Origin: Argopecten irradians
Lineage: Eukaryota > Mollusca > Bivalvia > Pectinida > Pectinidae
DNA length: 64,000 nucleotides
Assembly: GCF_041381155.1 (NCBI RefSeq)
Contig: NC_091134.1
Span: 35,345,540-35,409,539 of the forward strand
Direction: 5' to 3'
The notes below the pieces were generated by a model. The model was not told where the DNA came from. It worked only from the letters and a program-made list of their open reading frames with translations, and ran no database searches. Made by a program: the position numbers and the translations under genes. This document shows positions 4,835-55,900 of this stretch, piece by piece (position 1 is the stretch's first letter; the number at the start of each line of letters is the position of its first letter).

Positions 4835-7800
4835 TCACGTGTCGCCCAAGTTGATGTAGCATGGCATAGAGAAAGAGTTAGGGCTCACGATAATAATGAT
4901 GGCGGACACAGAGGTAGCTACACCAAACAGCACACCTATGCCAATAATCTCATAGTGCAGCACTCTCCTCCATAGGGGTATTACTCTACAACACACACGT
5001 TCAAACGTTATAGAAATCATCTCATAGTGCATCATTCTTCTCCATATAGGTATTTCATCACAATAGAAACATTAAGAAAGTCAGAAATAAACTTATAGTG
5101 CATCACTCTCCTACATAGAGGTATGACTCTATAACAGACACATTCAAAAGTTATAGAAATAATCTCATAGTTAACAGTGCATCGCTCTCTTTCATAGAGG
5201 TACAATGTATCAATGCTGCACAGACATATTCAAAAGTTATAACAATATCATAGGTCAGCTCTCTCCAACCTCCACATCGACATCACACATAACAAAATGA
5301 TTCAAATGCAGCAGCTTTGTTAATTTCATAATGTTTGCGAATGTTTTGAAATTATCGAAGACACGAAATACCGTATAGCCGCTTATCTTCACGGGAACGA
5401 TTTTTTTGCGGGGATGATATTTTCGTGATTTCGCGTACCATTGCTATGATCGCGAAATTTGACTCAAAGAATATTAAAGTGAATAATCGGACAAAGAAAA
5501 CCTGCATAAATGTGTTAATTGGCCTTCCAAAAGTCCTTACATATCAAAACAATGGTCAATTTCTGCTTACGTTGCCCAGTTTTGACCAAAGAAATTATGG
5601 AAAAGTCCTGTGTAAATTAAACACAGTTCTAAAATCAAATTTACCTAAGTCTTCGAAAGCGAGGCTGCGTGGAAATGTTCACAGCTATGTTCACAGCTAT
5701 CCGGGGGGGACGTTTTAGGATTCCTATAGTATAAATAAATTTCCTCGCTTGCAGAGCGATTTAAGGGAAGATGGGAAATATGCTTTTTCTATTTCATTAG
5801 AAATTATACTGTATATACTGACACCACTTTTACCGACTTTAGCTTTCTTTTGCCCGACTATCCACTTTCAGAAATGATTGAATTTTTATTTTTTTATTTT
5901 TAGATGAAATCGCGGAAATTTTGCGAAGATACGGTATATGTATTGAATATGCAAAAATAAAGTTTAATATCCATTCAAAGAATGTATTTGCATTTAAGTA
6001 CCCTTCCATGAAAAAACAAAATGTTTGTCTCTGTCTAAAATTACTCTATGTATACGTATATTCAATAAAAGTGAATTATTGTTGCATAATTTACTTACGT
6101 TTTGTGAGTCGATAAGGAACTCGTTTCCATAGTAAAATGGCTGCTATAATTGTCCACCTGGGCGCCAGCAGCGGCCGTGATTTTGCACATTTTGGTATAA
6201 AATAGAACAGGGAAGATCGTACCCAGAAGAGTATACGTCGATCCGCCTAACAATGATTGTAATGAGCTAAACTTTGGTATTGTTTCGGCCACAAATAACA
6301 TACCAAAGAAAACACAAGACCTGGATACACACCTCTTCCAGGTAAATACTGAAATAAAAAAGAGAAAATAATGAGAATGACACATTTACAATACATTCAA
6401 ACATGTCTATAAAAATGCCCCATAGGATGAAAAAATGGTGCACAGGCCAAATTGTCAGGAAATTGACCGTTTGTGACTCTGAGAAAATGGTTTTATTAAT
6501 TAAGTAATCGTTATAGATGATGGTCGCTAAAGCAGGTTTGGAAGTAAATATTTAATTAAAACTGAACAATGATTATATGTGTCACCATTTCTTCGAACAT
6601 CAACCGACGGTGTAAGACAGTACAAACGTTATTAGCAAAAATCTCTTGAGATAAGAAGCTTAACAAACAAGCCCACATATATTAAAATAATGTCACTGCT
6701 AGGTGGCACTGTAACGGCATATTCTGATAACTGATAAAAAAGCGATGGACCAATAGAATACTACAGCACTTGGTAATTAATAAACAAATGGACCAAAACA
6801 TTTCTGAGTAAAATCAAACCTTTTGGTACATGGAACACCAGCTCGACGGCTTGGAGGATAGGGTTAATTGATGTTGTGGTAGCCAACAGTAGATGTAGAG
6901 TGATGAAAATAAAGACGATGTAGTAAAATACCCCGTATGGTAGGTTGTTCAATATGTTATCTTCTAGGTCCTCCCCGTACACAAGGTATCCAGGGATCGC
7001 AGACGATAAGAGGAGGATGAGTACGACTGTTAATATATTAATAACATGAGAACTATTCGTTAATATTTCCTGTCATCATTTAAACCTACATAAATGTATG
7101 AATACGTTTGGTTCTTTTCCAGTGAAGCAATTCCGTCTTTGCATATTACAGAGTTAGCTCCCTTGTGGGTAGGTATCGATTGTTACGTCATTATTTCGTA
7201 AGCGCAATTTACGTCGTTTTCTCCGAAACGTATGACGTTACGTTCCCAAACACATGACGTCACAATCACATGGATTTAGGTACTGATTTCACAGACAACG
7301 AAAGCAAAACACATTTTTAACATGTATATACACAATTCAACATCAATCATTGTCCAAACGATAAATGTGATTTATGCTCTGTCTGTCGGCAGTGGAGTAT
7401 CTTTAAAGGACTTTAGAAGACACTGAATAGATATAGATGGAATTGGTGTGTTCAATTCTGCTTACTTATGCTGCCAATGACTGCTGCTACTTTAAATTGT
7501 TTGGGTTTTCTCATATCCATTAGAAATGTTAGGCAATATGGCTGTACCCCGTCGATATATGCAATTATACCTATACCGAGGCTAATCTTCTTTAAGTCAG
7601 GTCCTGGATGGCGGACAATAGGATGGTTTGGAGCATCCAAACTACAACTGATCACTATGGCAACTACACATAGGACGGTGGCCGCTACAGCGCCATAGGC
7701 CATCCACCTTAGAGCAAGAGAAACAATTTGTAATTTTTTATAACGAAAACAATAGAAAAAATAATATCCTAATTATGTTGATGATTAAAGGGAAAATATT

Positions 7801-22459: not shown

Positions 22460-25400
22460 CTAACTGAGATAGCAGGGCATCGATAAAGAATCTGGGCTAA
22501 CAATGTTTATTATGGCAGAGACAGAGGCAGCTAGTCCTGATAAAATCCCTACTCCGACAATGATGTAGTTTAGTGCCTTCTTCCACATTGGTAATACCCT
22601 GGAAAAAAAGTACAATATTAGTGATGTTATACATCTTTACTGTCGTTCAGCAACATTATTTTCACAATAAATCATTTTATTGCGAAATGAGCAATGTAGA
22701 AGCTTTCGTACATTTCTATCTTCAAATTTAAAATTGAAAACAATATTTATGAAATATGTTTTATATGTTTGTTTATGCTTCTCCTTTTTTATTATTCGTA
22801 TATCACTTTGCATTAAACCGTCGATAATATTTCATATTTTCAGAATCATAAATATGTGAAATGTTCTCTTTTGGTGATGTCATCAAATTTACATAAAGAT
22901 CAAAATATCGTTTTTCATGCGTGATCCATTTCTTTATCATTTTTAATAATAACAGAACGTGGCTCAATAATGACTGTAGAGTTAATCACTGTAACGCAAG
23001 AGAAGATATTCTGCATTTGTACATTACAGAGTTACCGCCCTTGAGGGTAGGTATTGATTGTTAAGTCATGAATTTGCTAGAGTAACGTCATATTGTTTTC
23101 AACGACGAAGATTTCGATCACAAGTAATGAAGTCATAATCGATATCTACCTGCAAGGGAGATTACTCTTGTAATATGCATAGACAGAATATAAGGGGTCC
23201 AAACATACCTTTTTGGTCTATCCAAATCTGAGTGTATCTCTAGATTACTGTCATTCATTAAAGAAGCGTTATGTTCAGTCTTTAGTTTGCACATTTTCAT
23301 ATACAGTAATGCGGGGCACACAAAGTCTGTCAGAGTAAAAGACGATCCACCAATTAATGCCAACAGATTGCTGAATTTTGGAATCGTTTCCGCAATAAAC
23401 AGAATACATGCTATGATAATGAGTCTAACAACACATCTTCTCCATGTGAATTCTGAAAATGAAACAAAACAAGTACACGATATTGAAATGGAATGTAAAA
23501 TATTAAGGAATAATGTAAAGAGTAATGTAAAATTTAGCTATCTGAATATCGTTAGATGTCTATATATATATTTATTATAGGACATACTTTTATATAACAA
23601 TCTTTACATTGTAATGTAATAGAAAATATCTTGACCAATTTCAGTTTCAATAAGTATACATAATACAAATGTGTTTTTGATTGTTTTTTGTTTTTAGAAC
23701 AAAAATAGACGTCCATCCAACATAGACATACAGACAAGAAAGCGACTGTTCTTGGCCTTAAACGTCAATAGTTGAAATACTTTTTCCTGAGATACAACGT
23801 ATGTTGACGAACTCAATTACCTTTACACTTGACAGCACTAAGAAAGAGTTATATAAACAATATGAAGAATGACTTTTAAGGTTAGCTTTAAATGAGGTGG
23901 ATTTGTATTATATTCTCACCATATTGGACGACTAATTTTATTTCATTTACTATATTTGTTTTTGAAAATCGACTAATCACCTATGGCTTACCTTTTGGTA
24001 AATTAAGGGCCATTTCGACCTCCTGTAGAGTAGGACTAAGGACAATGATAAAGGCTAGAATTAGATGCACGGTGACCATTAGTATTACAATATAGGACAG
24101 AGTTCCTATTGGCATGTTGCTCAACACATTTGGTTGTAGTTCGGACCCATATACAAAGTATCCGATGGCTGTGACAGGTACGTACATCAGTAATACAACT
24201 ACAAAGTATAAACATGAGTATAATGTTATATAAAGTATCCCATGGAGGTGACAGATACGTACATCAGTAATACAACTACAAAGTATAAACATGAGTATAA
24301 TGTTATACAAAGTATCCTATTGCCGTGACAGGTACAATGTACGTACATCAGTCATACAACTACAAAGTATAAACATGAGTAAAATGTTATACAAAGTATC
24401 CTATTGCCGTGACAGGTACAATGTACGTACATCAGTCATACAACTACAAAGTATAAACATGAGTAAAATGTTATACAAAGTATCCTATTGCCGTGACAGG
24501 TACGTACATCAGTAATACAACTACAAAGTATAAACATGAGTATAATGTTATACAAAGTATCCGATGGCCGTGACAGGTACGTACATCAGTAATACAACTA
24601 CAAAGTATAAACATGAGTATAATGTTATACAAAGTATCCCATGGAGGTGACAGGTACGTACATCAGTAATACAACTACAAAGTATAAACATGAGTATAAT
24701 GTTATACAAAGTATCCCATGGAGGTGACAGATACGTACACCAGTAAAATAAATATAAAGTATAAATTTAAACATTACCAAACAGTATATCGACGGGACTG
24801 CAAAATACGGTTGTTATAAAGCTACAAAGTATGACATTTATTACATCGCAATACAAGTCCTTTATCGTCGCAAAGACTTCAGAAAACAACTAAACATAAT
24901 TTTAAGTATTATATTGGTATATAAAGTTAATACATGATATTCGCGTTTAATTAAGAAAGAGATAATATTCGTACGGATGTATCCAAAAATTACAGCTGGT
25001 TTGAAATCTTTTGTCCTCTTCATGTCCATTTGAAAAGTAAGAAAACAAGAGTGACCACCAAATGTGAAAGAGAGGGTACCAAATGCCAGTACAATTTTCA
25101 TTATATCTGGGCTTTGATGCTGAACATCTGTCTGATTTGGCGCATCCATTCCAATACCGACAGCAATCAGAATGGCAGCTACGAAAGTAGCTACTGTAGC
25201 CCCATAGCCGATCAACCTAGGGAAGGGAACCAATTAATATTATTAATATTTTCAATATTTTCCAATAATTTTGTAAAATACAAATAAAACAATTAATATT
25301 TTTATTTCAAATATTTTTTAAATAACATTTCAATCATTTCTAAATTCACAATATTAATATGTATTTTTATATCATAATATAAAAAATGTCAATTTCATGC

Positions 25401-30219: not shown

Positions 30220-33200
30220 CGCTGCTTAAATGGGATGTTAGATTTGTAATCTTGGTCCGAAACCATATAGCTTCCTGTAAAGTTAATATAACATTTTATA
30301 GATATGTAAATATTATATATCAAACCGTGTGTCATCTATATATATATATAAATATCAACATTAAAATGAATGTCCTTCGTAAAAAGTTACCCTACCTTAT
30401 TACGTATGATCAAATGACCCAATGCATATAAAGTCACATAACCATATATATTTGAAATGACCCCGATTCCTGATGTCCTCTCGGGTACCGATTAACGAAC
30501 AATGTATATCCAAGATCTTCAGAAGAGACAACTCATTATAAGGAGTGGTAGAACAAGCCGGTCACACAACACCATTATTTGTAATGATGAAAAATGACTC
30601 TATGCTGCAGGCGTTTACATGTGCGCAATGACCTTAAGACGTGTCACCAAGCCTAGCGGCGTGCTCATAATTAAAAAGTGTTTACAAATATCGAAAGAAA
30701 ATTCTTTTTAGTACTATACAAGGGTACCGAAACTAACACACGTGTATACTTATGGAAAGAAGAAAATAATACATTGAGATAATTCCCTCAAATATCAAAA
30801 AATGTATATCAAATAAGTAAAACCTCCAACACGAATTCAGAACTACATTTGCAAAAACAAAAATAAAACTAAAAATAAAACAACGCTCTATTCATAGTGA
30901 CCATATTGAATTTATACTGCTGGATTCAAAGGTTTTATATAGGTTAATAAAGTAGAGTTTGCTATCTGTCACACAGTATTAAATTTCATTCTATAAAACA
31001 CAATACTATTTCAATATATACTGTGTGCTTGTGACACCAAAACATTAACATATCGCTAGAGTTTAAAAGTACGCAACCTACTTATTTTAGTACATAAAAT
31101 ATACTGGGATCTACGATCAAACGCGCCTTATAGATTATGAATGATAAGTATATAAAAAGTACAAGTATGTACATACAGCACTATTTTAATACTTACAGAA
31201 AGAAGAAAAGCTATTATGTTAATAAATGGATAGCAGAGTGTTTTAATATCGATCACATTGTTAATGTAATGATCTATTGACGGGTTTGCATGATTTTTGA
31301 AGATTGTCAACACTTATATAAAGCTACGGTCAGACTGATAAGCTGACAGGTTCATATTGTGTATTGTTGATATATTCAAGGTTTATCGTGCTCATTTATT
31401 CTAGAACTTCAAATCACAAGCTCATATGACGCAACGTGTTGATACTGTTATAATAAACAATAAGTTGGGTATTGCCAGAACAAATTTGAATAATAATTCT
31501 GTTAATAATTCTACGTTTAACATTGTCGTCTGAAAATGTAGAAATTGATAAAACGGCCCTTTGTTTTAACTAAATATTTTGCTTAGAATGATTTTTTGTA
31601 TGCTAAATATCTTCCGTCTATTTTGTCTGCATGGTGTATATGTACGGTCCATTTTGAGCTCAGTGGCAAATGTAAGTGTGAATGTTTGATATACATTTCT
31701 TTGGTGTATATCATAATTTATTGATATATATTGCATTACATACAAATTAATGTAATTAATGTATTTGAAATACAACAAAAAGTTAACATAATTTCTGTTT
31801 TATAAATTTTCTGGCATTGTAAAATGTTCAATTAAATATTTCTGCATGCCATTTCATTTTCCATTGTAATCTACTACTTGGTACATATGGGTGCAAGTAG
31901 ATTACATAGTGTACGATCTAAGGGAGATAGATATATAGCCTTTAATGAATACGGATTATTTCCCTTTACTAAACACTATGTTTTGAGAACAAGAAAGACG
32001 TGTTGTTGTTTCTCTGTCGAAGATGTAGCGAGCATGCTCTTAATATATTTAATGTCTCAATCGCACAACAATCGCCATAAGCTTATCAGCTGTAACTCTT
32101 TAATTTTACAAACTTTGAAATATTATAAAAAAAATGTATTGGAATGTATATTACATGTTGCATAAACACATTTCAAATGCATTGAATGAAGCTTAGAAAA
32201 TCCTGACAATGGAAAGCAAGTAAATCAGGAAGTGAACGCTATTTAAGACCATTTAGTGTTAGAATTATAACTAAGTCAGGTGTAGATATGGTTCATGTAT
32301 CAAGCATTACCTATAATTATGTATATATCTAGTTAACTAGTAATAATATAAATATGGATATAAGATATAAGAAACACCCTCACATATTATCTATTATAAT
32401 AGTAATAATATAAATATGGATATAAGATATAAGAAACACCCTCACATATTATATATTATAATTATCTTGTTTTGTGAGTAATGGCGAAAAAATATTCGGG
32501 TTTAATTTATTTTAACTTTAAAAAAGTAAACATGGACAGATAGTAAAGCCAAACTCTTATTCTTATAAAATCAAACGAAGTTCACAATTTTGTAGCATGG
32601 TCATCTATCCTGACCTTGCCATGACGCTCGCTGTGTCTTAGCCCGAAACGGCTACATTTTTGTTCACACTCTGTATATGACAACGGAAGCAAATGCAAAA
32701 TATACAACATTGACGAATTCAGTGGACAATGTTATAAATACGTGTCTTTAATATACATATGTATATTATTGACCATTAAGTGTGTATCCGGAATTTTAAT
32801 TTCTTTGTATGTTATTACACCGGCAATTGTTATGTACCCGTAGCAGTTGAAAATAAATGTTGGAAGAAGACAGACTTCTTTTTATTTCACTGCAAGCGAG
32901 TCCCCACAACTATCTATTTTAAGCACGACAGTAAAATTGAAAACAACAAATGTCTGTTTAAGTGTAATAAACTGACAGGTGGTGTATAGTTTTTTATGAT
33001 TTGACCCAGAATCGATGTTACTGTTGAAAATAAAATATTTAATATTGTCATCCTTCAAATGAACTATTCTCTTGTATTTAATTGTGAACTGACTGTGAAA
33101 CTCTTTTTACTGGATTTTTCCCGTGGATGGATATACTGGTCTGTGTTAAGAAACCGTAGAAACAAGCAAAAATTAGATCTTTGAAAAACTCCTTCAAAAC

Positions 33201-33918
33201 AGAAGAGTTTATGGGGAAGTTAATGTGTCGAATTTTGGTGGTTGGATATGCAGGTGTCAAAATTTTCAAAAGTTCAAAAATATATAACTTTAATATGTAT
33301 ATGTAAAATGTTTCTATTCAAGAATCTGAATTATTTGTCATTTGTTTTTGTAAAGGGGATGTAATAATTAATTTTGTTGTAAAAGTCGTAAATATTTTTG
33401 TTATGTAGTTCAATACAAGATGCAAGATACAAGTCAACATAAAAGATATAAAATAGTTCACGAGAATGCGGGATGGCCTTCTTCAAAGTCAGCCATTGGT
33501 ATATTACGGTTCAATTGATTAAAAGTGAGACATGAGCTTGTATCTAAAAAGGAGTGTTTATTCCGCGATATACCGGTACTTTAATAAAATGATTCATTAT
33601 TACCCATGTCTTTGAAAAGGTGAGTGTGGAATAAAACTTGTCAATGTTGTTGTCGTTTCTGACTTCCACAATCGTACTGAAATGACTTGAATTTCAAATT
33701 GAATGATATTGTTGTTGTGATAATATTAACTTGTTATTTCGTAAGCTATTTTAAGTCTTTATACAAATTCATTCGTTTTTTTGGAAAATCGACAGTTTTC
33801 CATTCATGACTTTAATTTTCTCCTTCAGTGAAGTCTCATTATTTGCGACTCTCTGAAGTTCTGAGAAAATAATTGTAAATAAATGAATACAAAGTAGTAT
33901 TTATGGTTAGGCAGAGGC
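30220..33918. other. spacer between pseudogene E and gene C
   Basis: No gene recognised. The 95-codon frame at 31878-32165 (plus strand) shows no familiar domain and no splice or codon-use support. A 62-bp tandem duplication lies at 32340-32463. The presumed promoter of gene C lies just above 30219. Confidence 0.55.
32340..32463. repeat. tandem duplication, 2 x 62 bp
   Basis: GTAATAATATAAATATGGAT...AGAAACACCCTCACATATTAT is repeated directly, nearly identical, indicating a recent event. Confidence 0.9.
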
Positions 33919-35714
33919 TCATTTAATGTCGACATAACAAGGCACGGAGAAGGAGTCTGGGCTAACGATGTTAATAATGGCGGACACTGAGGCAGCGACT
34001 CCGGCCAGAACACCCACACCTACTAGTTAAGTATTCTTCTTATAATTGTGTCGGTCTACAAAACAATATTAATAAAATTACAAAAAAAGATATATAAGGA
34101 AATAAAAAACAACATTATTTAGCGCTATATATACATAAAGCTAACATAATTAGTCTTTATAGATTTATTTTTTTACTTTTATTAGTTATTTTTTACAAAT
34201 AAACACACACACATACGAAAAGCTTTGGCGAATGCATTTTGTTATCTTTAGAATATAACTTACTAGTGTAAAATAAATACCATTTTAAACAATATCAGGT
34301 CGTCTGACACGTTTAATATTGATAAAATTATAATGATTAAGGATAAACTAAGCTGGAATCTAAAACACTGTGGCAAAATTTCACTTTCAATGCGAAAATA
34401 TTGATGATTTAACGAAAACATATCAAGAAAACTTTTTTTTACAAAACAATAATATACTTATAAACACACTTTAAAAATCGAAATACAAAAAAAAGAGCTT
34501 TGGAGTATTTGCTTCATCGACAAAATCCTCTGTTTGAATCTTTATCAAATCTGCGTCAAATGCAGATAAATGATAGCCTGAACAGATACTCATTAAACTT
34601 AATATACTGTAAACTAATGAACGAGTTTTATTTGAAAATGTATTTAAATATCAACACATAAAACAGATTAGGGGTTATGGAGAAAATAAATAACCTTAAA
34701 ATTAAATAAAAATATCATCTGTTGATCTGTGGATATACTCACGTACCTTCATCATGTGTTATATTAAAGGTCTCAGTTTTCACCTTAATATCGTTTTCGT
34801 GAGCGTCTGATTTCAGATGACACATCTTCATGTGTAATTATCCAGGACAGATGAAAACCAACAGTGTCACTAATGATCCGCCAATTAATGATAATATATA
34901 ATTAAATTTTGGGATAGTCTCGGCTATAAATAGCACAGAGAGAACAAAACAGGATCAGGTGACACAGCATTTCCATTTGAATTCTAAAACAAAAGAACAG
35001 AGCTTGGTAATATTATGTAGCGTTATACCGCAATGTATGGAGGTTAAAGGGATAATTCAGTGAGGCTAATTCTATTACATAACCAGAAGCAAAATGTGGC
35101 ATAAATGAATTGTTCTACATTCCTTATGAAACGTATAACAAGAAATATTGACAAATTTCACGACATTGTTAAGTATTTTGATTGATACCGTTGGAAATTC
35201 CAAATCGTTGATCAATACGATTAAGCAGGCACAACATGTATGCTGTACTAATACTCGGGCTAAAGTGGCACACGTTCAACAAATGCAATATATAACCACT
35301 GAGGAGTTAGTGAAATTATTTTTAGACAAGAAGATGTATCTAATAAGGTAAACACAATACAGTAAGAGCGATTTGAGTAGTTCTCAAATTCATTATTTTT
35401 ATATAAGTTTTACTTATTTATGTTTTACATCGCATTAACAGCAATGGTGATTCAAGGACGTGTCACATCTCAGAGGTGAGGAAGCAACTAACTTAGGCAA
35501 CTAGAGAAAACCACAAAGTTTCAGTTATTACATGGCAACTGTCACCCCAGAGATGGAGGGTTAGTGGTAATATATCACAACATCTTAACTATTGGGCATT
35601 CGAACCCTCTTTTAGTAAGAAATAATGTCAGGATAAATTGGGATGCAATTATAAAAATATAATGCATAATCTTTTTCTCTCAAACGTATTTTAAATCATA
35701 CCTCCTGGAGTTCC

Positions 35715-36570
35715 AGGGGCGTAGGAAGCGGGGGGGGGGGGGGGGGGGGGGGCAGGGGAGCAACTGCCCCCCCCCCCCCCCGTTCCCCAGGACGGGGGGC
35801 AAACATGTCTTTTTGACCCCCCCCCCCCCCATTTTCGCCGACTGAAATTTTCTTAAAATGCTTATTTGAAAGAAAAAAAGGGTCCTCCTACACATTTTTC
35901 GTACTTCATTCTAGAAAATTTTCCGCTGCGCGGCGCATTTCCTAAAACGTTCAAGCACATAATGTCAAACCTTAAATAGTGAAAATTCAATACACAAAAA
36001 CTAGACTAAAAATGTCCATCAAGGGATTCTATGTGCTATTTAAAAAAATGTCTCTTAAAAGATCAATTTGTTTATATGTCTTAGCGAGACAATTAATTCA
36101 TTTTTTTTATGTTACACAACAATGTGCCGATGGGTGTGAAGCCGGTATATTCAGATCGAGTAGGGTTGCATAATGTTATGGCGACACAATTGTCATTTCT
36201 AAATGCAGGTAGCTTTAAATCGAAAAATTACCATGTTAAGAACGCTTTATAATCATTAAACTTTATCGTAAAACTCATCTCAGCCATTCTAAATCGTAAT
36301 TTTTTTTCCCGGGGAGACCCCCGGACCCCCCTAACACCAAATTCTCACGCCTTTTGGCGCTCGCAAATTCATCAAAATGCATCGTAAAACTCATCTAAGC
36401 CATTCTAAATCGTAATTTTTTCCGGGGAGACCCCCGGACCCCCCAAACACCAAAATCTCGCGCGCTGTCGGGCGATCGCAAAATCATCAAAATACATAAA
36501 ACTCATCCCGGGGGTCACCCTCAGACCCCTAATAAAACACCAAAATCTCGCGCCTTCGACGCTCACACAC
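35715..36570. repeat. homopolymer G/C block and three-unit GC-rich repeat replacing exons 4-6 of pseudogene E
   Basis: Begins CCAGGGGCGTAGGAAGC followed by a run of about 23 G, then runs of C near 35767-35781 and 35816-35830, a low-complexity stretch prone to assembly error. Downstream, three units of about 100-130 bp start near 36264, 36383 and 36497, built on AAAACTCATC...CCATTCTAAATCGTAATTTTTT, GGGGAGACCCCCGGACCCCC and AACACCAAAATCTCGCGC. Probably interspersed-repeat debris; it occupies the place where exons 4-6 would be. Confidence 0.6.
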
Positions 36571-36689
36571 GCTAATTCGGCCAATTTGCGTATGTTTTCT
36601 GTGCTAGAAGTTGATATGGATTTTGTACGTGTCCTCTACAATCCTCAAATGATCAGATGCCATCAGCCAGGACTGACACATAAGGCCGA

Positions 36690-39600
36690 AGTGTACCCGG
36701 AGAGGACCAGAAACACCACAATCAGGATCATACCCACTCATCCTAAAATGATTAGATTGACACAGTATGACTGCAGTGTACCCGGAGAGGACAAGAAACA
36801 CCACAATCAGGATCAGACCCACTCATCCTGAAATGATTAGACTGACAAAGTAGGACCTCAGTGTACCCGGAGAGGATCAGAAACACCACAATCAGATCAG
36901 ACCCACTCATCCTAAAATAATTAGATTGACACAGTATGACTGCAGTGTACCCGGAGAGGACTAGAAACACCACAATCGTATCAGACCAACTCATCCTAAA
37001 ATGATTAGACTGACACAGTATGACTGCAGTGTACCCGGAGAGGACAAGAAACACCACAATCAGGATCAGACCCACTCATCCTGAAATGATTAGACTGACA
37101 CAGTAGGACCTCAGTGTACCCGGAGAGGACAAGAAACACCACAATCAGGATCAGACCCACTCATCCTAAAATGATTAGACTGACACAGTATGACTGCAGT
37201 GTACCCGGAGAGGACCAGAAACACTACAATTAAGATCAGATCCATCCATCCTAAAATGATTAGACTGACACAGTATGACTGCAGTGTACGCGGAGAGGAC
37301 AAGAAACACTACAATTAAGATCAGACCCATCCATCCTAAAATGATTAGACTGACACAGTATGACTGCAATGTACCCGGAGAGGACCAGAAACACCACAAT
37401 CAAGATCAGACCCATCCATCCTAAAATGATTAGACTGACACAGTATGACTGCAGTGTACCCGGAGAGGACAAGAAACACCACAATCAGGATCAGACCCAC
37501 TCATCCTAAAATGATTAGACTGACACAGTATGACTGCAGTGTACCCGGAGAGGACCAGAAACACCACAATCAAGATCAGACCCATCCATCCTAAAATGAT
37601 AAGACTGACACAGTATGACTGCAGTGTACCCGGAGAGGACAAGAAACACCACAATCAGGATCATACCCACTCATCCTGAAATGATTAGACTGACACAGTA
37701 TGACTGCAGTGTACCCGGAGAGGACCAGTAACACCACAATCAGGATCAGACCCACTCATCCTGAAATGATTAGACTAACAAAGTAGGACCTCAGTGTACC
37801 CGGAGAGGACAAGAAACACCACAATCAGGATCAGACCCACTCATCCTGAAATGATTAGACTGACACAGTATGACTGCAGTGTACCCGGAGAGGACCAGAA
37901 ACACCACAATCAGGATCAGACCCACCCATCCTAAAATGATTAGACTGACACAGTATGACTGCAGTGTACCCGGAGAGGACCAGAAACACCACAATCAGGA
38001 TCAGACCCACTCATCCTGAAAATGATTAGACTGACAAAGTAGGACCTCAGTGTACCCGGAGAGGATCAGAAACACCACAATCAGGATCAGACCCACTTAT
38101 CCTAAAATAATTAGATTGACACAGTATGACTGCAGTGTACCCGGAGAGGATCAGAAACACCACAATCAGGATCAGACCCACTCATCCTAAAATAATTAGA
38201 TTGACACAGTATGACTGCAGTGTACCCGGAGAGGATCAGAAACACCACAATCAGGATCAGACCCACTCATCCTAAAATGATTAGACTGACACAGTATGAC
38301 TGCAGTGTACCCGGAGAGGACAAGAAACACCACAATCAGGATCAGACCCACTCATCCTAAAATGATTAGACTGACACAGTATGACTGCAGTGTACCCGGA
38401 GAGGACCAGAAACACCACAATCAAGATCAGACCCATCCATCCTAAAATGATTAGACTGACACAGTATGACTGCAGTGTACCCGGAGAGGACAAGAAACAC
38501 CACAATCAGGATCAGACCCACTCATCCTAAAATGATTAGACTGACACAGTATGACTGCAGTGTACCCGGAGAGGACCAGAAACACCACAATCAGGATCAG
38601 ACCCACTCATCCTGAAATGATTAGACTGACAAAGTAGGACCTCAGTGTACCCGGAGAGGACAAGAAACACCACAATCAGGATCAGACCCACTCATCCTGA
38701 AATGATTAGAATGACACAGTATGACTGCAGTGTACCCGGAGAGGACCGGAAACACCTCAATCAAGATCAGACCCACCCATCCTAAAATGATTAGACTGAC
38801 ACAGTATGACTGCAGTGTACCCGGAGAGGACCAGAAACACTACAATCAGGATCAGACCCACCCATCCTAAAATGATTAGACTGACACAGTATGACTGCAG
38901 TGTACCCGGAGAGGACCAGAAACACCACAATCAGGATCAGACCCACTTATCCTAAAATGATTAGATTGACACAGTATGACTGCAGTGTACCCGGAGAGGA
39001 CCAGAAACACCACAATCAAGATCAGACCCACCCATCCTAAAAAGATTAGACTGACACAGTATGACTGCAATGTACCCGGAGAGGACCAGAAACACCACAA
39101 TCAAGATCAGACCCACTCATCCTAAAATGATTAGACTGACACAGTATGACTGCAGTGTACCCGGAGGAGGACAAGAAACACTACAATCAGGATCAGACCC
39201 ACTCATCCTAAAATGATTAGACTGACACAGTATGACTGCAGTGTACCCGGAGGGAACCAGAAACACCACAATCAAGATCAGACCCGTTCATCCTAAAATG
39301 ATTAGACTGACAAAGTATGACTGCAGTGTATTCGGGAGACCAGAAACACCTCAACCAAGATCAGACCCACTCATCCTAAAATGATAGACTGACAAAGTAG
39401 GACCTCAGTGTACCCGGAGAGGACCAGAAACACTACAATCAGGATCAGACCCACTCATCCTAAAATGATTAGACTGACACAGTATGACTGCAGTGTACCA
39501 GGAGAGGACCAGAAACACCACAATCAGGATCAGACCCACTCATCCTAAAATGATTAGACTGACACAGTATGACTGCAGTGTACCAGGAGAGGACCAGAAA

Positions 39601-40992
39601 CACCACAATCAGGATCAGACCCACTCATCCTAAAATGATTAGATTGACACAGTATGACTGCAGTGTACCCGGAGAGGACAAGAAACACCACAATCAGGAT
39701 CAGATCCACCCATCCTAAAATGATTAGATTGACACAGTATGACTGCAGTGTACCCGGAGAGGACCAGAAACACCACAATCAGGATCAGACCCACTCATCC
39801 TAAAATGATTAGACTGACACAGTATGACTGCAGTGTACCCGGAGAGGACAAGAAACACTACAATCAGGATCAGACCCACCCATCCTAAAATGATTAGACT
39901 GACACAGTATGACTGCAGTGTACCCGGAGAGGACAAGAAACACCACAATCAGGATCAGACCCACTCATCCTAAAATGATTAGACTGACACAGTATGACTG
40001 CAGTGTACCCGGAGAGGACAAGAAACACCACAATCAGGATCAGACCACTCATCCTAAAATGATTAGATTGACACAGTATGACTGCAGTGTACCCGGAGAG
40101 GACAAGAAACACCACAATCAGGATCAGACCCACTCATCCTAAAATGATTAGACTGACACAGTATGACTGCAGTGTACCCGGAGAGGACCAGAAACACCAC
40201 AATCAGGATCAGACCCACTCATCCTAAAATGATTAGACTGACACAGTATGACTGCAGTGTACCCGGAGAGGACAAGAAACACCACAATCAGGATCAGACC
40301 CACTCATCCTAAAATGATTAGACTGACACAGTATGACTGCAGTGTACCCGGAGAGGACCAGAAACACCACAATCAGGATCAGACCCACTCATCCTAAAAT
40401 GATTAGACTGACACAGTATGACTGCAGTGTACCCGGAGAGGACCAGAAACACCACAATCAGGATCAGACCCACTCATCCTAAAATGATTAGACTGACACA
40501 GTATGACTGCAGTGTACCCGGAGAGGACCAGAAACACCACAATCAGGATCAGACCCACTCATCCTAAAATGATTAGATTGACACAGTATGACTGCAGTGT
40601 ACCCGGAGAGGACAAGAAACACCACAATCAGGATCAGACCCACCCATCCTAAAATGATTAGACTGACACAGTATGACTGCAGTGTACCCGGAGAGGACCA
40701 GAAACACCACAATCAGGATCAGACCCACTTATCCTAAAATGATTAGACTGACACAGTATGACTGCAGTGTACCCGGAGAGGACAAGAAACACCACAATCA
40801 GGATCAGACCCACTCATCCTAAAATGATTAAACTGACACAGTATGACTGCAGTGTACCCGGAGAGGACAAGAAACACCACAATCAGGATCAGACCCACTC
40901 ATCCTAAAATGATTAGACTGACACAGTATGACTGCAGTGTACCCGGAGAGGACAAGAAACACCACAATCAGGATCAGATCCACTCATTCTAA
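36690..40992 (-). repeat. 85-bp minisatellite, about 50 copies, of the intron 2/exon 3 junction
   Basis: Consensus blocks on the plus strand: AAAATGATTAGACTGACACA, GTATGACTGCAGTGTACCCG, GAGAGGACAAGAAACACCAC, AATCAGGATCAGACCCACTC, ATCCT (85 bp). On the minus strand each unit reads ATTTTAG followed by GATGAGTGGGTCTGATCCTG and so on: the 3' splice site and the first 70 or so bases of exon 3, encoding a GWVGLILIVVFLVLSGYTAV-like stretch. Most units differ by only a few bases. Variable positions recur (ACAAGAAAC/ACCAGAAAC, CACTCATCC/CACCCATCC), hinting at higher-order patterns. Because 85 is not divisible by three, the many 67-107-codon frames here are artefacts that pass through all three frames. 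Confidence 0.95.
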
Positions 40993-42689
40993 AAGACTAG
41001 ACTAATGACAAGACTGGTATCAGCTGTTCATAGAATAAGGATTTCACAATGTTATAAGTACTGGCTTCTCCGTATTTAAGTACATGTAGCAGGCTCTCAG
41101 ATTACCATCTCAAATCCCGCCATATATATCTGTCCCGGAAATCCATTACAAAACAAAGCATTAGTTTCTACGATGGAACTTTATATAGAGAACCAACGCC
41201 CCAAACTCGTCCTGATACTTTTATAAGATGAAAACTTTAGCGTATGCAATAGAGGGATATCATCTGTGCTACTTAAGTCAATATTGGAGGAAAAGACAAC
41301 CATGCAAAAAGTGATTTCATTTTACTGACAATTAAATACATTTTATTGCTTGTGTTTTAATTTGTCCAATGTTCTATTAATAGCCAGTATCATTGAAGGA
41401 TATTCCTAGTTTGTTGTCGAAAGAAGACGAAGTATCCGGAGAAAAAAACACACCGAGAAGTGATCCGTACCTAGCATCTGCCCCACATAATATTCAAGCT
41501 CACTAACCCAGAAGTGGTTGGCACGTGGTAATATGTCGGGACATCTGAACCAATTTGCCACCGTGGCTCCTACATATATTTTCACGTAGATAAAACATTT
41601 TTTTATTTATTTTATACAGTATTATTTGACCCCGATATGGTGGATATGTTTCATTACCCTGACTAGCAGAGTTATTTCTGCCTGATGCTTACCTGTGTGT
41701 GGGATTTTGGACCCTATCTTTACCTGTGACCTCTACTGCCCTGGAAAGGGAGAGTATGCCAGTTCCTGCAACGTTTCCAACAATAAAGAAAACGGCGTTC
41801 AGGGCACTTAATCCCTTCTCCTGTGGAATCTGTGTCAGGTTATCAAAAGTAATATTGAAAGATCTTAAATACATGCTCATTTCATTTATGGAACGGGTCT
41901 AATAAGTTTCGAGTTTCGTAACATCGCATATAAAATGCATACACATTTAAAATACTTTTTATCGCATAACTAAAACAACCTTCATTTCGAAGAATATTAA
42001 CATCAGAATTTGTTATGAAAATCCATGCCATTCTGTCACAAGTCCCCCGAATCCTGACGTCAGTTTTACACCTACGTTAAGAAAAAATGTCACAATTGAT
42101 TTTAGACAATGGGAATCGCTCCAGGTTGTATTACTATGGTGACATGTGCAAACATATTACACGGCCAAGTCATTGAATATCAGTCGGATTATGTGATAAA
42201 ATATTATATGCATATACTGTGCGCAGATGATACACAATATTATGCTTTTTTCTCTCATCACATTGATATGATGTGCGTAATATAAACGACAAATACCCGA
42301 AGAATAAAACAGTATTTGACGCTCTTTACATTACTGGGGTCTTAGCCGAACTATTTGGCGTTCCAACGGACAAGTCCTTGAAGAGCGAAACAGCTATATG
42401 GTTTCCCTTACTTTACCGGCGAGTTATAGATGGACAAATCATTTGCATCACTGACGAAGTAAACAATTCTTTTTAAATATGCAGTTGCTTATTATCTTAA
42501 ACATCTTTTAAATAAATCTCAATTATGGTGCCCTTATATATCCTCGTTACGATGGCATCACAGGTTAAATATGTTTTGTTACTATTTTCAAACCTCTTTT
42601 TGTTGGTATATCATTTAAGTATTAAATATATTCTATGCAAAATAATGCTATATCTTTCTTCGATTACTAACCAAATTATTTGATGACAT

Positions 42690-50061: not shown

Positions 50062-50641
50062 TTCAGGACATTTGTCTGAAGGATTTGTTTATCAGTCACA
50101 TGTTAACATGTACATATGTACCATATCTCGGACAGTTGAGACGACCCATACCCGTTCTAATCAACAGGTGATCACTATCTGTTTTTTTAATATTAACATA
50201 TCGCAACTACACCTACATTCAATTTCTGTATTTGAGGTGCAAAGTTGTTGTTTTTAGTTAATATTTCAGTTCACTTTCAATGGCACATAAAGAATGTAAA
50301 AATATGTAAATAGAATATTGTTTGCTGAAACAATGATTTTAATAATGTCTTAGTGTTTTTAATTTATTTGCGATATCATGAAAAAAGTGACCGATATTAC
50401 CCTTTATAAGTCTTAATTGACATAAAATCTATTACAAGAAGAATATGAACAGGTGAATCCGATGTTTCCTTTTAATCATACAAAACAGAACCTTAATTTG
50501 CACAAAAAACATTACTTTCCCAATTATTATATAAAGCTTGTGAATGTATTTTATTGATTTAATTTGTGTTTGTGCGCGTCAGTTACCTAACTTAGTGACG
50601 ATTCTCTCCGCTAGGCTGCGCTTATAAATTCCAAAGTATTG

Positions 50642-51293
50642 AAACACATTGGAATTCGTATCAGAACGTTAAATTTTGAATATAGTCTTTTTAATATTTG
50701 AGTTTCATACGCTGATGTCATGTTGAATGTACCAGAACGGAGCGAAGCCTAGCGGGAAGAAGAAAAAACACTATGGTTGGCAATCTAACCTTAGATAAAC
50801 GTGTTATATGATATGAGAGTACACGTCAACTGTTGTACTGGTGGATTGCCATTTTTTATTCATTACGACATAAAAGCTGTGTTCAACTTGATATAACTGA
50901 AAGAAAGAATTACCTAAAGAAAGAATTTGTATAGACTTTGCTTTTTATTCGATCCTTTTGACATTGGAAATCGTATCAGAACGTTAAATTTTCAATTCAA
51001 CATCTGATCACTTTTGTTCTTTTATGTTTCATACGCTGATATCATGTTGAATGCACCAGAACGGAGCGAAGCCTAGCGGGAAGTAGAAACAATTCTGACA
51101 CGCAATCCAACCTAACCTTAAATACACATAGACGGGTTAAATGATGTGAGAGTATACGACAACTCTTATATTATTGGTTTGTATTCATTGCGACATAAAG
51201 GCTTTGTTTATGACGTAATATAGCTGAACAAAAGAATCACCTAAGGGAAGAATTTGTATAGACTTTGCCTTTTATTCTATCCTTTTAACTAAC
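50642..51293. repeat. tandem duplication, 2 x about 325 bp
   Basis: Both units contain, in order, ATCAGAACGTTAAATTTT, CATACGCTGAT, ACGGAGCGAAGCCTAGCGGG, ATGAGAGTA/GTGAGAGTA, AAGAATTTGTATAGACTTTG and TTTTATTC. They begin near 50642 and 50967. Identity is moderate, so the duplication is not recent. Confidence 0.8.
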
Positions 51294-51902
51294 ATCTTGT
51301 CAATGAATTTTGATGAAATGAAATGCATATAGATGGATCCACAAGTCTAAGACGTTGGTTTTGTCGTGTAATTAAACGTTCTGAACTTAAATTTCTAATT
51401 AATACCTCGTCGCGTTGAGTGTTGTAATAAACACATACAAAACAGTGTCCTTACATCGATTTAAATATCCTAAACCCAATTTCGCTCTGCATGTGTAAAC
51501 TAATACTGACCAGTCCACCTCAGTGCAAGTGGACCACAAAGTTTCAATTGCATCTATAACATAGTAGGCCTAAATACAAGCCATCATTCAAAGAAAACAA
51601 AGGAAAAATAAAGACCTTAATAGTGAACACATTAGCAGAGTATTGCTACTTTCAGCCGAATGAGCTGGATGGAGAGGATTCCGTGAGAGGAGAGCTGATA
51701 GCCCTAATAAGCTTACAAAAGGACTCGGTATAATCAGGGATATTTCTCTGTTGTAACATGAATGCAAAAAAATTATTTGAATACATTGATCTCTTTATAA
51801 TGTAATGATGGACAGGTATAACTCATCCTATTGAATAATTACATGACATCGTGACAATACATTCATTCATTTTTGTTCTGTTTGTTTGCCTCTACCATGG
51901 CA

Positions 51903-52098
51903 ATATAATTACAATGGTAATTGTGTGAATGACTTTCGAGTATGTGTCTCGACTTCAGTGTAGCTGGAGCATCAATATAATTACAATGGTAATTGTGTGA
52001 ATGACTTTCGAGTAGTGTCTCGACTTCAGTGTAGCTGGAGCATCAATATAATTACAACGGTAATTGTGTGAATGACGTCTCGACTTCAGTGTAGCTAG
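51903..52098. repeat. tandem repeat, 3 units of about 63-75 bp
   Basis: Unit: AATATAATTACAATGGTAAT, TGTGTGAATGACTTTCGAGT, GTGTCTCGACTTCAGTGTAG, CTGGAGCATC. The third unit has lost the TTTCGAGT segment. Confidence 0.85.
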
Positions 52099-52537
52099 AA
52101 TTAGAAAGGGTGATTGTCTTAAGCCTATACCAGGAGCCAATATTGTCCACATGAAAATCAATATTGAACAGCAATAGTAGATCTTTCTGCAATTGAGTGG
52201 AAATACAGGTAAACATGCCTACAAACAATGTTTCTTTGACGACTTGATAATTCAAATGTTATCGAGTGGTCAGCAAATTGTTCTCTCACTGTGGTCGGTT
52301 AGCTGTGGGAAAAATCTATGTTTGGTTGTAACTACATGTATATGATACTTTGGATAAACGGTGATTAAATATCGACAATGAACTGAACTTCGTATAACAA
52401 AAGCAGCATAAATGTCGGTTGCGCAAATGAAAAATTCATTAAGCAGCACTCAGTTAGTGTTTTAACGACAAATATTGGCAAGCATTTGTTCGGGAAAATA
52501 AGGATAACAATTTGATGCAGGTAAGTGGTCTTTTTAA

Positions 52538-52935
52538 TACCGTATAGCCGGTCAAAGTTTTCGTGATTTTGATTAAAAAGAAAAAGAAAATTATAGCGGT
52601 TTTTAATTTTCGGGATTATTGGTCGATAATCCGCCGATAAAATTTTTGTGGTCATTGAAATGTCCCACGAAATCGAGAAAGCATCATCCCTATGATATAA
52701 TCGTCATTACGATACTTTAAATCAACCTTTTTTCGAGGCTACTAAATTTTGCGATTTCAATTTCAAAACAAGTTCCCGAAGATAAACTGTCGCGCATTTG
52801 AAAATTAAATGCAAATATATATTAACTTAAACGTTGTTCATATGCATTCGCGGAGATAAACATTCGCGAATTTACTGTAATCGCGAAATTCGCGAGAGCA
52901 AATATCACACGCGAAAAAAGTTCGTTAATGGTATA
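52538..52935. mobile_element. second copy of the TACCGTATAGCCG element
   Basis: Begins TACCGTATAGCCGGTCAAAG and carries TTTTCGTGATTTTGA. The right part has several CGCGAAATTCGCGA-type blocks and ends near GTTCGTTAATGGTATA. Related to 5369-5937 by its left end. Confidence 0.45.
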
Positions 52936-55900
52936 GCATATATATTTATGTACTCTGTTCAAGACCTAAGTCAAAAACAACCTTAAATAAAATGAATGTA
53001 TTTGGCTTGTCTTTATCATCTTGCTTTGCCACCATATCTTGATGTATTCGTGCATCTATTTCTTATTTAGTACCAAAAAGATTATAATTTTTTCTCTGAC
53101 TTTATTTCTATAGCAATCTTCATGTTTTGTGCAGTTCAAAAATAAAAGAGCCGCATTGATTTTTACCTAATTACGTCATCACTTTGTTTTATTGAATACC
53201 ATACTTTTAGAATAACACTTGGAAGTCCTCGAATGTAATTGTCGTACATTGACCAAGAACATCCATTTTGAAATTAGGGACTTTTTTTTAACAACAGGTT
53301 GTCACCGAGGACACAACCCCACAAAAAGTGTCACTTTATCATTCGATTTTCTTACAAATTCTTACACCTATCTCATCCTTGGAAATGTTTTACATCCGGC
53401 GAGTTCCGATTGCCAGAATAACATTGTAATTTGTCAAAATCGGTCCTTGCGTAATCCGGACCCCTGTATATTCTGAGGTAATAATATAGCAAATTCCTTC
53501 TTAATTTCACAGTATTGAAACCTGTATAAACCGGAAACTAAACTGAACCAAATATGCTGCTGCGGTGATGTTCTGTTTAGACAAATAGCACTTTACTATA
53601 TTTTACTCGCTAATATTCATACCGTACATTGTATGAGGTCTTATATTCCACCTGATTACATTGAGTGGATATGCGATCTCATACGAGATCCGTATGTCCG
53701 CCGTGTTGCTGGCAGCGCCCGCTTATATTTAAACGTATCAAAGACAATTTCAATGGCAAGATATAAAACCGATTACTGATGACTTAGTTGATGATTATAT
53801 ATCAATTCATTCCTACAAATAATTTTGTATGACACCACCCATATATTGTTGAATCCATGTTAAATCGTATGCAAGTCGATTTGCTCAATTCTACTGTTAC
53901 TAAAACATTATGGCTGCTTTGGTTAATACAAAACACAAAATTTAAATTAAGCGAAACGCATAATGGAAATGACGTTAACTTTGTTCCGCTTGTTTTGCGT
54001 ACAGATTTAGATAAATCCTAAATTTCATAAAACCTTAATAATCCTATTCAAATTAAAAATGGCGGTTAATACAAGTGAAAATACGATGAATGTTATAAGA
54101 AATGCATTTTCATAGCTTCTTGGACTAATTTGTTGGAAATGTCTCGCAAATATGTTTATTTATGATAAATAATCCAAAAAGGTAGGGTGACAATATCTAA
54201 AATGTGACTTTTGATACATTTTACATCATTTTGATCAGCTGTGGCCCAGCAACATGAATCAATGGCATTGCTCGTTAGAGGTCACACGACGCAATGTTAA
54301 AAGTATCTCGTCGTGTTAACATCTAACAATGTTGGAGTAGCTTTACATCTGCTATCATAAACCGGCATACAGGCTTTTTAATTTACTTTGCTCATATTGT
54401 GTTGTTTTCACATATTGGCATGGTACAGTTTAACACAAAAGCCATCGTTACACATCGCAGACAATAAACTGGGGTTATGCATGTAATTATCTCACAAAGA
54501 CTCTATAACTATTCATAGATATCTTTACATTTTTACATGGAATAAAGATATGAAAATGTTAATAAGTTTAATGGCCAGTCTAGAGAGAATACCTGAGGAT
54601 CAGTTTGATACGTAAACAATGCTTATGAGTGAGTTAATAGGTTTATTTGTTGCTTTATATATCGTTCGCTTTAGAATTTGCACCCATCTGTACGTTAATG
54701 CTGAGCAATCTTACAAAACCAACGTATTTAGGTAGACAATCCTAAAATAACGTGTAGTTGTGGCTAAATTCCACTGAAAATTATGTTCAGATGACTTGTT
54801 GAGTCTCTCATCAAATTATTGTATTCCTAACAAGGTCTGCCATATAATGTTGAAATTTAAGCTCAATATGTGTATTGTGTTACCTATGATATTTAAATGT
54901 CGTCAGCTATGCCAGTTTGGTAGTGTCGTTTTGGACCAAAACAAAGTAATTTACCGCTTACATCCAATTGTTTGCCGTTAAAATATCTAAGGTCAGAAAA
55001 TGTTTCAAGGTCAGTGGTTGTAAAGTACATGTAGGCAGAATCTGTTTCGCTGGTAGAGGTTCAAAAACAACAATATTGAAATTGAAAATAATGAGAAGCT
55101 TTTCATATTATCAACGCCAATTAAATTATTGATATTTTCATAGCTACTCTAGCATAGAACCTTGAATGATCCAGATAGAGTGAACCGTGAATATAATTTC
55201 TTCTTCGCCTTACATATCACAAAACATTTTGAAAATATAAGTTATTTAGAATATCCTGTTATCTTAATCCGTGATGCACGAATCTTCTCCAAATATATAT
55301 ACAGAAAATGAAAGAAAACTTGCCATTTTTACTTTTTTTCCTGTGATTGTAATTCCATAGAATGAAAGTGCACATTACGCCCAAACTATACTATAATCAT
55401 TAAAATGTCGAGATAACGTCTATTGGTGAATATTAATGTATCATGCAATATTATCTTAACAGGTGTTGGAAATTTACCTCAGATATTTATCGTAGAACTT
55501 CCTTGCTGAAGTGGTTGCGTAAGATTTATACCAAACAAATATTGACTTCATTGATCGAGGTCTGTGCATGTTGTTAGGTAAGCCTATACGCGTGATACGC
55601 GTGATAACTTGTGACGAAACAGTTATTCATTAACACGACGATCGGAGATCGCTTGTGACTGGTGTGTGTGTCGAGATGATGTAAACTGAACTGACACCTG
55701 ATTAGATATCGGATTATGAGAGTGTATTTCAAGGTAAGTTCACACTAAGGCTGGAGGCGTTTCAGTTTGTCACACCTACCGTTGTTTACGATATCTTAGT
55801 TGTAGGGAAATGCATAGTAATTATGTATATAGTTTCATGACATTGCAGAATGCTTGACTTTAAGACAAAATTTGTGAGAAAGCTGTTATACGATGTTCAA

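Follow-up and report, generated by a model that had tools for sequence, protein, structure and literature searches.

An 85-bp tandem array across the intron 2/exon 3 border of a scallop transporter pseudogene

Gene E and its transporter neighbours

The window, the whole 64,000-nucleotide stretch of Argopecten irradians DNA analysed here, contains a cluster of five transporter genes, A to E. Judged by its sequence, gene E is an AVT1/Aa_trans-type transporter gene that is now a pseudogene. A protein search gave 58 matches, transporters with Pfam PF01490, the best of them scallop proteins. Among the proteins compared, the closest full-length relative of E by the text of exons 2 and 3 was a Pecten maximus protein of 442 aa (P0007), which was used as the reference for mapping the gene.

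All features of gene E lie on the minus strand. Exon 2 (41724..41829) was matched by tblastn with residues 7-42 of P0007 (match 41829-41722) at 69% identity without a stop codon, and is bounded by the acceptor ACACAG and the donor ACAG/GTAAAG. Intron 2 upstream of the array occupies 41002..41723, as delimited by the sequence and the edge of unit 1, followed by the 85-bp unit array (36671..41003) and the remainder of exon 3 (36571..36670), which was located by tblastn and reading frames. The P0007 match to this remainder, at 36649-36590, is 90% identical over 20 residues. Comparison of the exon 3 ends revealed no AG/GT donor in E at the position where A-D carry it. Further downstream are relics of the FTWKR exon (34793..34984, residues 311-374) and of the last exon (33910..34044, residues 396-442), each 64% identical to P0007 and interrupted by stop codons. 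Residues 94-310 gave no tblastn match at 33000-42500 with E<=10. With these residues unmatched and stops in the later relics, the locus lacks a complete set of coding exons for a P0007-like transporter. The sequence-only reading had described E as a pseudogene of the transporter cluster that keeps exon 2 and its donor, and both statements agree with these results. No Argopecten protein for E was present among the 35 matches of a protein search with P0007, which is weak evidence because the same search also missed the Argopecten proteins P0009 and P0020.

Near the truncated end of exon 3 lies a dispersed repeat some 820 bp long (35714..36536, no strand assigned), which is 93% identical to a copy in the stretch L028. 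The repeat itself contains an internal duplication with a spacing of about 116 bp.

A whole-genome search with P0007 yielded 41 matches at E<=0.001, comprising the five-gene cluster, a partial copy of gene D on contig C833, and a paralog at C1:47.11 Mb. P0009 and P0020 matched genes C and A, respectively, the mapping of P0020 in gene A leaving out residues 1-22. The paralog has one short array (31 bp x 2.1), with none at an exon start, and four family proteins gave no match in the neighbouring stretches L009 and L010. The contig with the partial gene-D copy is 27,605 bases long, and 10 kb of it (L031) has no match to the window; this contig may reflect a haplotype whose surroundings differ, a further copy, or an assembly error.

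The 85-bp array at the intron 2/exon 3 junction

Analysis of the window by TRF identified a repeat of period 85 at 36671-41003, with 51.0 copies and 94% matches. Cutting of the array on the minus strand gave 52 pieces, of which 51 were counted as units, because piece 52 and the tail of piece 51 constitute the remainder of exon 3. Each unit consists of about 12 bp of the end of intron 2 (TAATCATTTTAG) and 73 bp of the start of exon 3, and reads TAATCATTTTAG/GATGAGTGGGTCTGATCC...TGTGTCAGTC on the minus strand, the slash marking the intron/exon border. Its translation is G-stop-VGLILIVVFLVLSGYTAVILCQ. The first exon base is at 40988 in unit 1 and at 36742 in unit 51. The array had previously been described from the letters as some 50 copies of an acceptor plus partial exon 3 with an 85-bp period, and the unit alignment confirms this description.

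Both ends of the array join the authentic gene, with intron 2 preceding unit 1 and the exon 3 remainder following unit 51. Translation across the latter boundary gives ...CQSWLMASDH, after which the 20-residue exon 3 peptide continues in another frame. The array had been placed inside intron 2; since unit 51 is continuous with the exon 3 remainder, it does not simply lie within the intron but spans the intron 2/exon 3 junction, each unit repeating one and the same border. The continuity of the remainder with the last copy is an addition to the sequence-only reading. The exon part of the unit is the start of gene E's own exon 3, and the array is best interpreted as an in-situ tandem duplication across its 3' splice site.

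For comparison with exon 3 of genes A-D, a 26-residue query was prepared from the unit peptide, in which Trp replaced the stop codon and the end was extended by two residues (CW). Identities of 42-54% were obtained with E values of 7e-7 to 5e-5, consistent with the kinship to the neighbouring exons that had been proposed. At the DNA level, the best match to the unit in the window outside the array is 22/25 bp, in gene D, and the possibility that the unit is a DNA copy of exon 3 of A-D was rejected on this basis.

The units differ by a mean of 6.0% over 1275 pairs, and 39 of the 85 columns are invariant. Mean divergence is 2.5% for units 1-18 and 7.6% for units 19-51, and turnover has therefore been uneven. 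The order signal is weak, neighbouring units being slightly more alike (225 of 5000 permutations were as low at lag 1), and variant types recur across separated units. Private changes are present in the edge units 1 and 51; the edge effect is not clean, because the interior unit 20 has diverged at least as much. The Trp codon reads TGA in 36 units, including both edge units, TGG in 12 and TAA in 3.

The units show no sign of coding constraint. The 39 distinct changes comprise 13 synonymous changes and 26 that are not (expected synonymous 31.7%, p 0.86). Counted over all units, changes amount to 5.7% at third, 2.9% at first and 2.0% at second codon positions, a hint of constraint that was not upheld by the distinct changes.

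To score the splice potential of the units, an acceptor matrix was built from 19 acceptors of the window, with the array exons left out, giving a small local model. In leave-one-out scoring, the 19 true acceptors range from -2.6 to 11.9 with a median of 5.6, versus a median of 0.6 for the 51 E units (minimum 0.5, maximum 6.2), and in the consensus unit another AG located 14 nt upstream scores higher, at 2.5. A low score does not by itself exclude use, since in the array exons of genes C and A, too, the true acceptor reaches only 2.2 and 3.5, respectively. The earlier proposal that every unit offers a 3' splice site thus stands as far as the dinucleotide is concerned, YAG being intact in 51/51 units, and falls short in acceptor strength, in the presence of the better AG upstream, and in the loss of the exon 3 donor. 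By this model the E units would be weak acceptors whose efficient use is doubtful, and if E is transcribed, little productive use of the array is to be expected.

Acceptor-spanning arrays in genes C and A

Two further arrays spanning acceptors, which had not been reported in the sequence-only reading, are present in genes C and A, both on the minus strand. These two genes appear intact. In gene C, the array at 24150..24765 (TRF, 77 bp x 7.8) consists of eight head-to-tail copies of an intron end and exon start, with two of the spacings being 84 bp. Seven copies have a GTAG acceptor and the most upstream copy is without AG. The seven acceptors all score 2.2 over the 22 scored positions. Only the last copy, with its first exon base at 24198, continues into the real exon.

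In gene A, the array lies at the acceptor of the last exon (4943..5171; TRF, 72 bp x 3.2, 75% matches) and is decayed. The true acceptor, with its first exon base at 4985, belongs to the last copy, the real exon; about three decayed copies come before it, and a further degenerate one extends to about 5240. The database proteins P0009 (gene C) and P0020 (gene A) pass straight into the last copy, and are possibly only predictions.

Across the genes, tandem copies cross the boundary at 3/29 acceptors versus 0/23 donors, several of these coordinates being approximate and taken from alignment ends, and the difference was judged not significant. Placement of arrays was also compared with random expectation, using 31 acceptor positions that are partly approximate. 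Of the six arrays with a period of at least 60, three meet an acceptor, with P values of 0.076 (window) and 0.157 (cluster) at real array lengths, and of 0.006 (window) and 0.015 (cluster) with arrays cut to 170 bp. The enrichment of arrays at acceptors is thus only suggestive.

Origin of the array and its known parallels

We interpret the E array as an acceptor 'mirage', a minisatellite formed in place by tandem duplication across the intron 2/exon 3 border of gene E and subsequently amplified, and assign this interpretation a probability of about 0.86. The first step would probably have been a duplication at short homology, as AGTC occurs both at the breakpoint in the exon (CAGTC) and in the flanking intron (TTAGTC); this homology is 4 bp, its alignment needs a one-base gap, and it could be due to chance. 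Unequal exchange or slippage would then have amplified and partly homogenised the array. In a pseudogene, whether E was one already or turned into one later, nothing would have checked the copy number, allowing it to reach 51. In genes A and C, the upstream copies would act as intron and be skipped, most likely by exon definition. The smaller arrays, we propose, persist there because protein comes only from the last acceptor, to which the remainder of the exon is attached.

Minisatellites are common nearby: after merging, 20 arrays with periods of 40-300 are present in 210 kb of neighbouring sequence, one of which has about 50 copies. A dispersed repeat also lies beside the truncated exon 3. 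Both are what might be expected if an anonymous satellite or mobile-element repeat, resembling or having captured part of exon 3, had landed here. The dispersed repeat, however, lies beyond the exon and outside the array, and the unit is in register with the exon 3 remainder. Moreover, a search of the 846-Mb Argopecten irradians genome with the unit gave at least 51 matches, all within the E array and none at another locus, these counts being lower bounds and the absence of a match elsewhere no proof of rarity. We consider such an arrival barely credible. An assembly artefact, with a real array that is much shorter or one that the assembler collapsed or expanded, is very unlikely. Long arrays are error-prone, and the partial gene-D copy on C833 reflects haplotype or assembly complexity; against this, individual units are set apart by their own mutations, variant types recur among them, and 1236 of the 1275 pairs differ while 39 are identical, which argues against simple assembler looping. 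The copy number of 51, as counted in this assembly, may nonetheless be off.

It is similarly improbable that the array is functional, with E transcripts using many of its acceptors or the acceptors titrating splicing factors as an RNA decoy. The intact YAG of all units and the presence of both splice sites of exon 2 accord with such a role. Intactness of AG in every unit is, however, only mildly unexpected (0.025 under independence, which does not hold; 39 of the 85 columns are invariant), and among 2930 AGs the median unit ranks at the 65th percentile. Exon 3 lacks a donor, and each of the three frames read from unit 1 contains 83-86 stops.

Formation in place by duplication of the border has parallels in lancelets, in which mirages were reportedly described at an earlier date by Canestro et al. 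2002. In these terms the E array is an acceptor mirage of large size, residing in a pseudogene of a scallop, and this kind of structure is already known from lancelets.

In amphioxus, mirages are minisatellite-like tandem duplications across exon-intron borders, including those of the globins BflGb6 and BflGb9 (PMC3087553). The segment repeated in BflGb6 joins the 3' end of an intron to the 5' part of the exon that follows it, and the two haplotypes carry 6 and 3 units, each 150-160 bp long. Splice signals are kept in many, not all, repeats, concerted evolution operates within the cluster, and the edge units of BflGb6 are reported to be exempt from homogenisation (PMC3087553). Adh (Adh3) and TnC also carry mirages, and PGBD5 has similar repeats (PMC3902484). 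Like these, the units of the E, C and A arrays each span a single splice junction and include intron as well as exon sequence, the E array is continuous with an authentic exon and intron, and the splice dinucleotides are kept in many copies (51/51 YAG in E; seven GTAG in C, with the most upstream copy without). The scallop case differs in its host, a bivalve mollusc, in its size of 51 units of 85 bp compared with the 6 and 3 of 150-160 bp in BflGb6, and in residing in a pseudogene. Whereas amphioxus has both acceptor and donor kinds, the scallop cluster has three arrays at acceptors and none at the 23 donors tested. With regard to the exclusion of edge units from homogenisation reported for BflGb6, the pattern in E is not clean: units 1 and 51 have private changes, but unit 20, in the interior, matches or exceeds their divergence.

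Two other frameworks share features with the E array. In the Rogers model, cited in the part of PMC3087553 consulted, introns are gained by tandem duplication at a splice-like sequence, and here too additional splice signals arise in place through tandem duplication. In contrast to that model, the E unit starts from an existing acceptor, and no strong donor by eye and no new intron are evident. The 85-bp unit, partial homogenisation and uneven turnover resemble an ordinary gene-associated minisatellite (VNTR), from which the E array differs in having a unit built around a splice junction and a portion of a coding exon.

No report of exon-border minisatellites in a mollusc was found in the literature searched by titles and abstract openings, with subscription journals mostly outside this search. 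The present arrays add a mollusc to the hosts of exon-boundary minisatellites and take their copy number to 51, with three at acceptors within one cluster, and indicate that the edge of a coding exon can seed a satellite-like array. Acceptor-spanning arrays may arise repeatedly in scallop genes, with three in different exons of a five-gene cluster that range from decayed to young, and be tolerated because the spliceosome ignores locally matching upstream acceptors and takes the last; we hold this generalisation tentatively, at slightly less than even odds. If true, such arrays would offer a naturally graded series for testing exon definition, and a means by which introns lengthen, outside lancelets. 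Gene C has seven equal-scoring acceptors and its database protein fits the last only, making the choice of the last acceptor directly testable, and the E array would be useful for testing spliceosome choice among near-identical acceptors.

Other minisatellites were also observed in the region. A 71-bp unit is repeated 2.5 times at 51901-52076 in near-identical copies, and a six-frame search of 50301-55100 detected no Pfam match around it. The neighbouring 210 kb also contain a long minisatellite of 96 bp x 50, at about C1:35501953-35506742 (L019).
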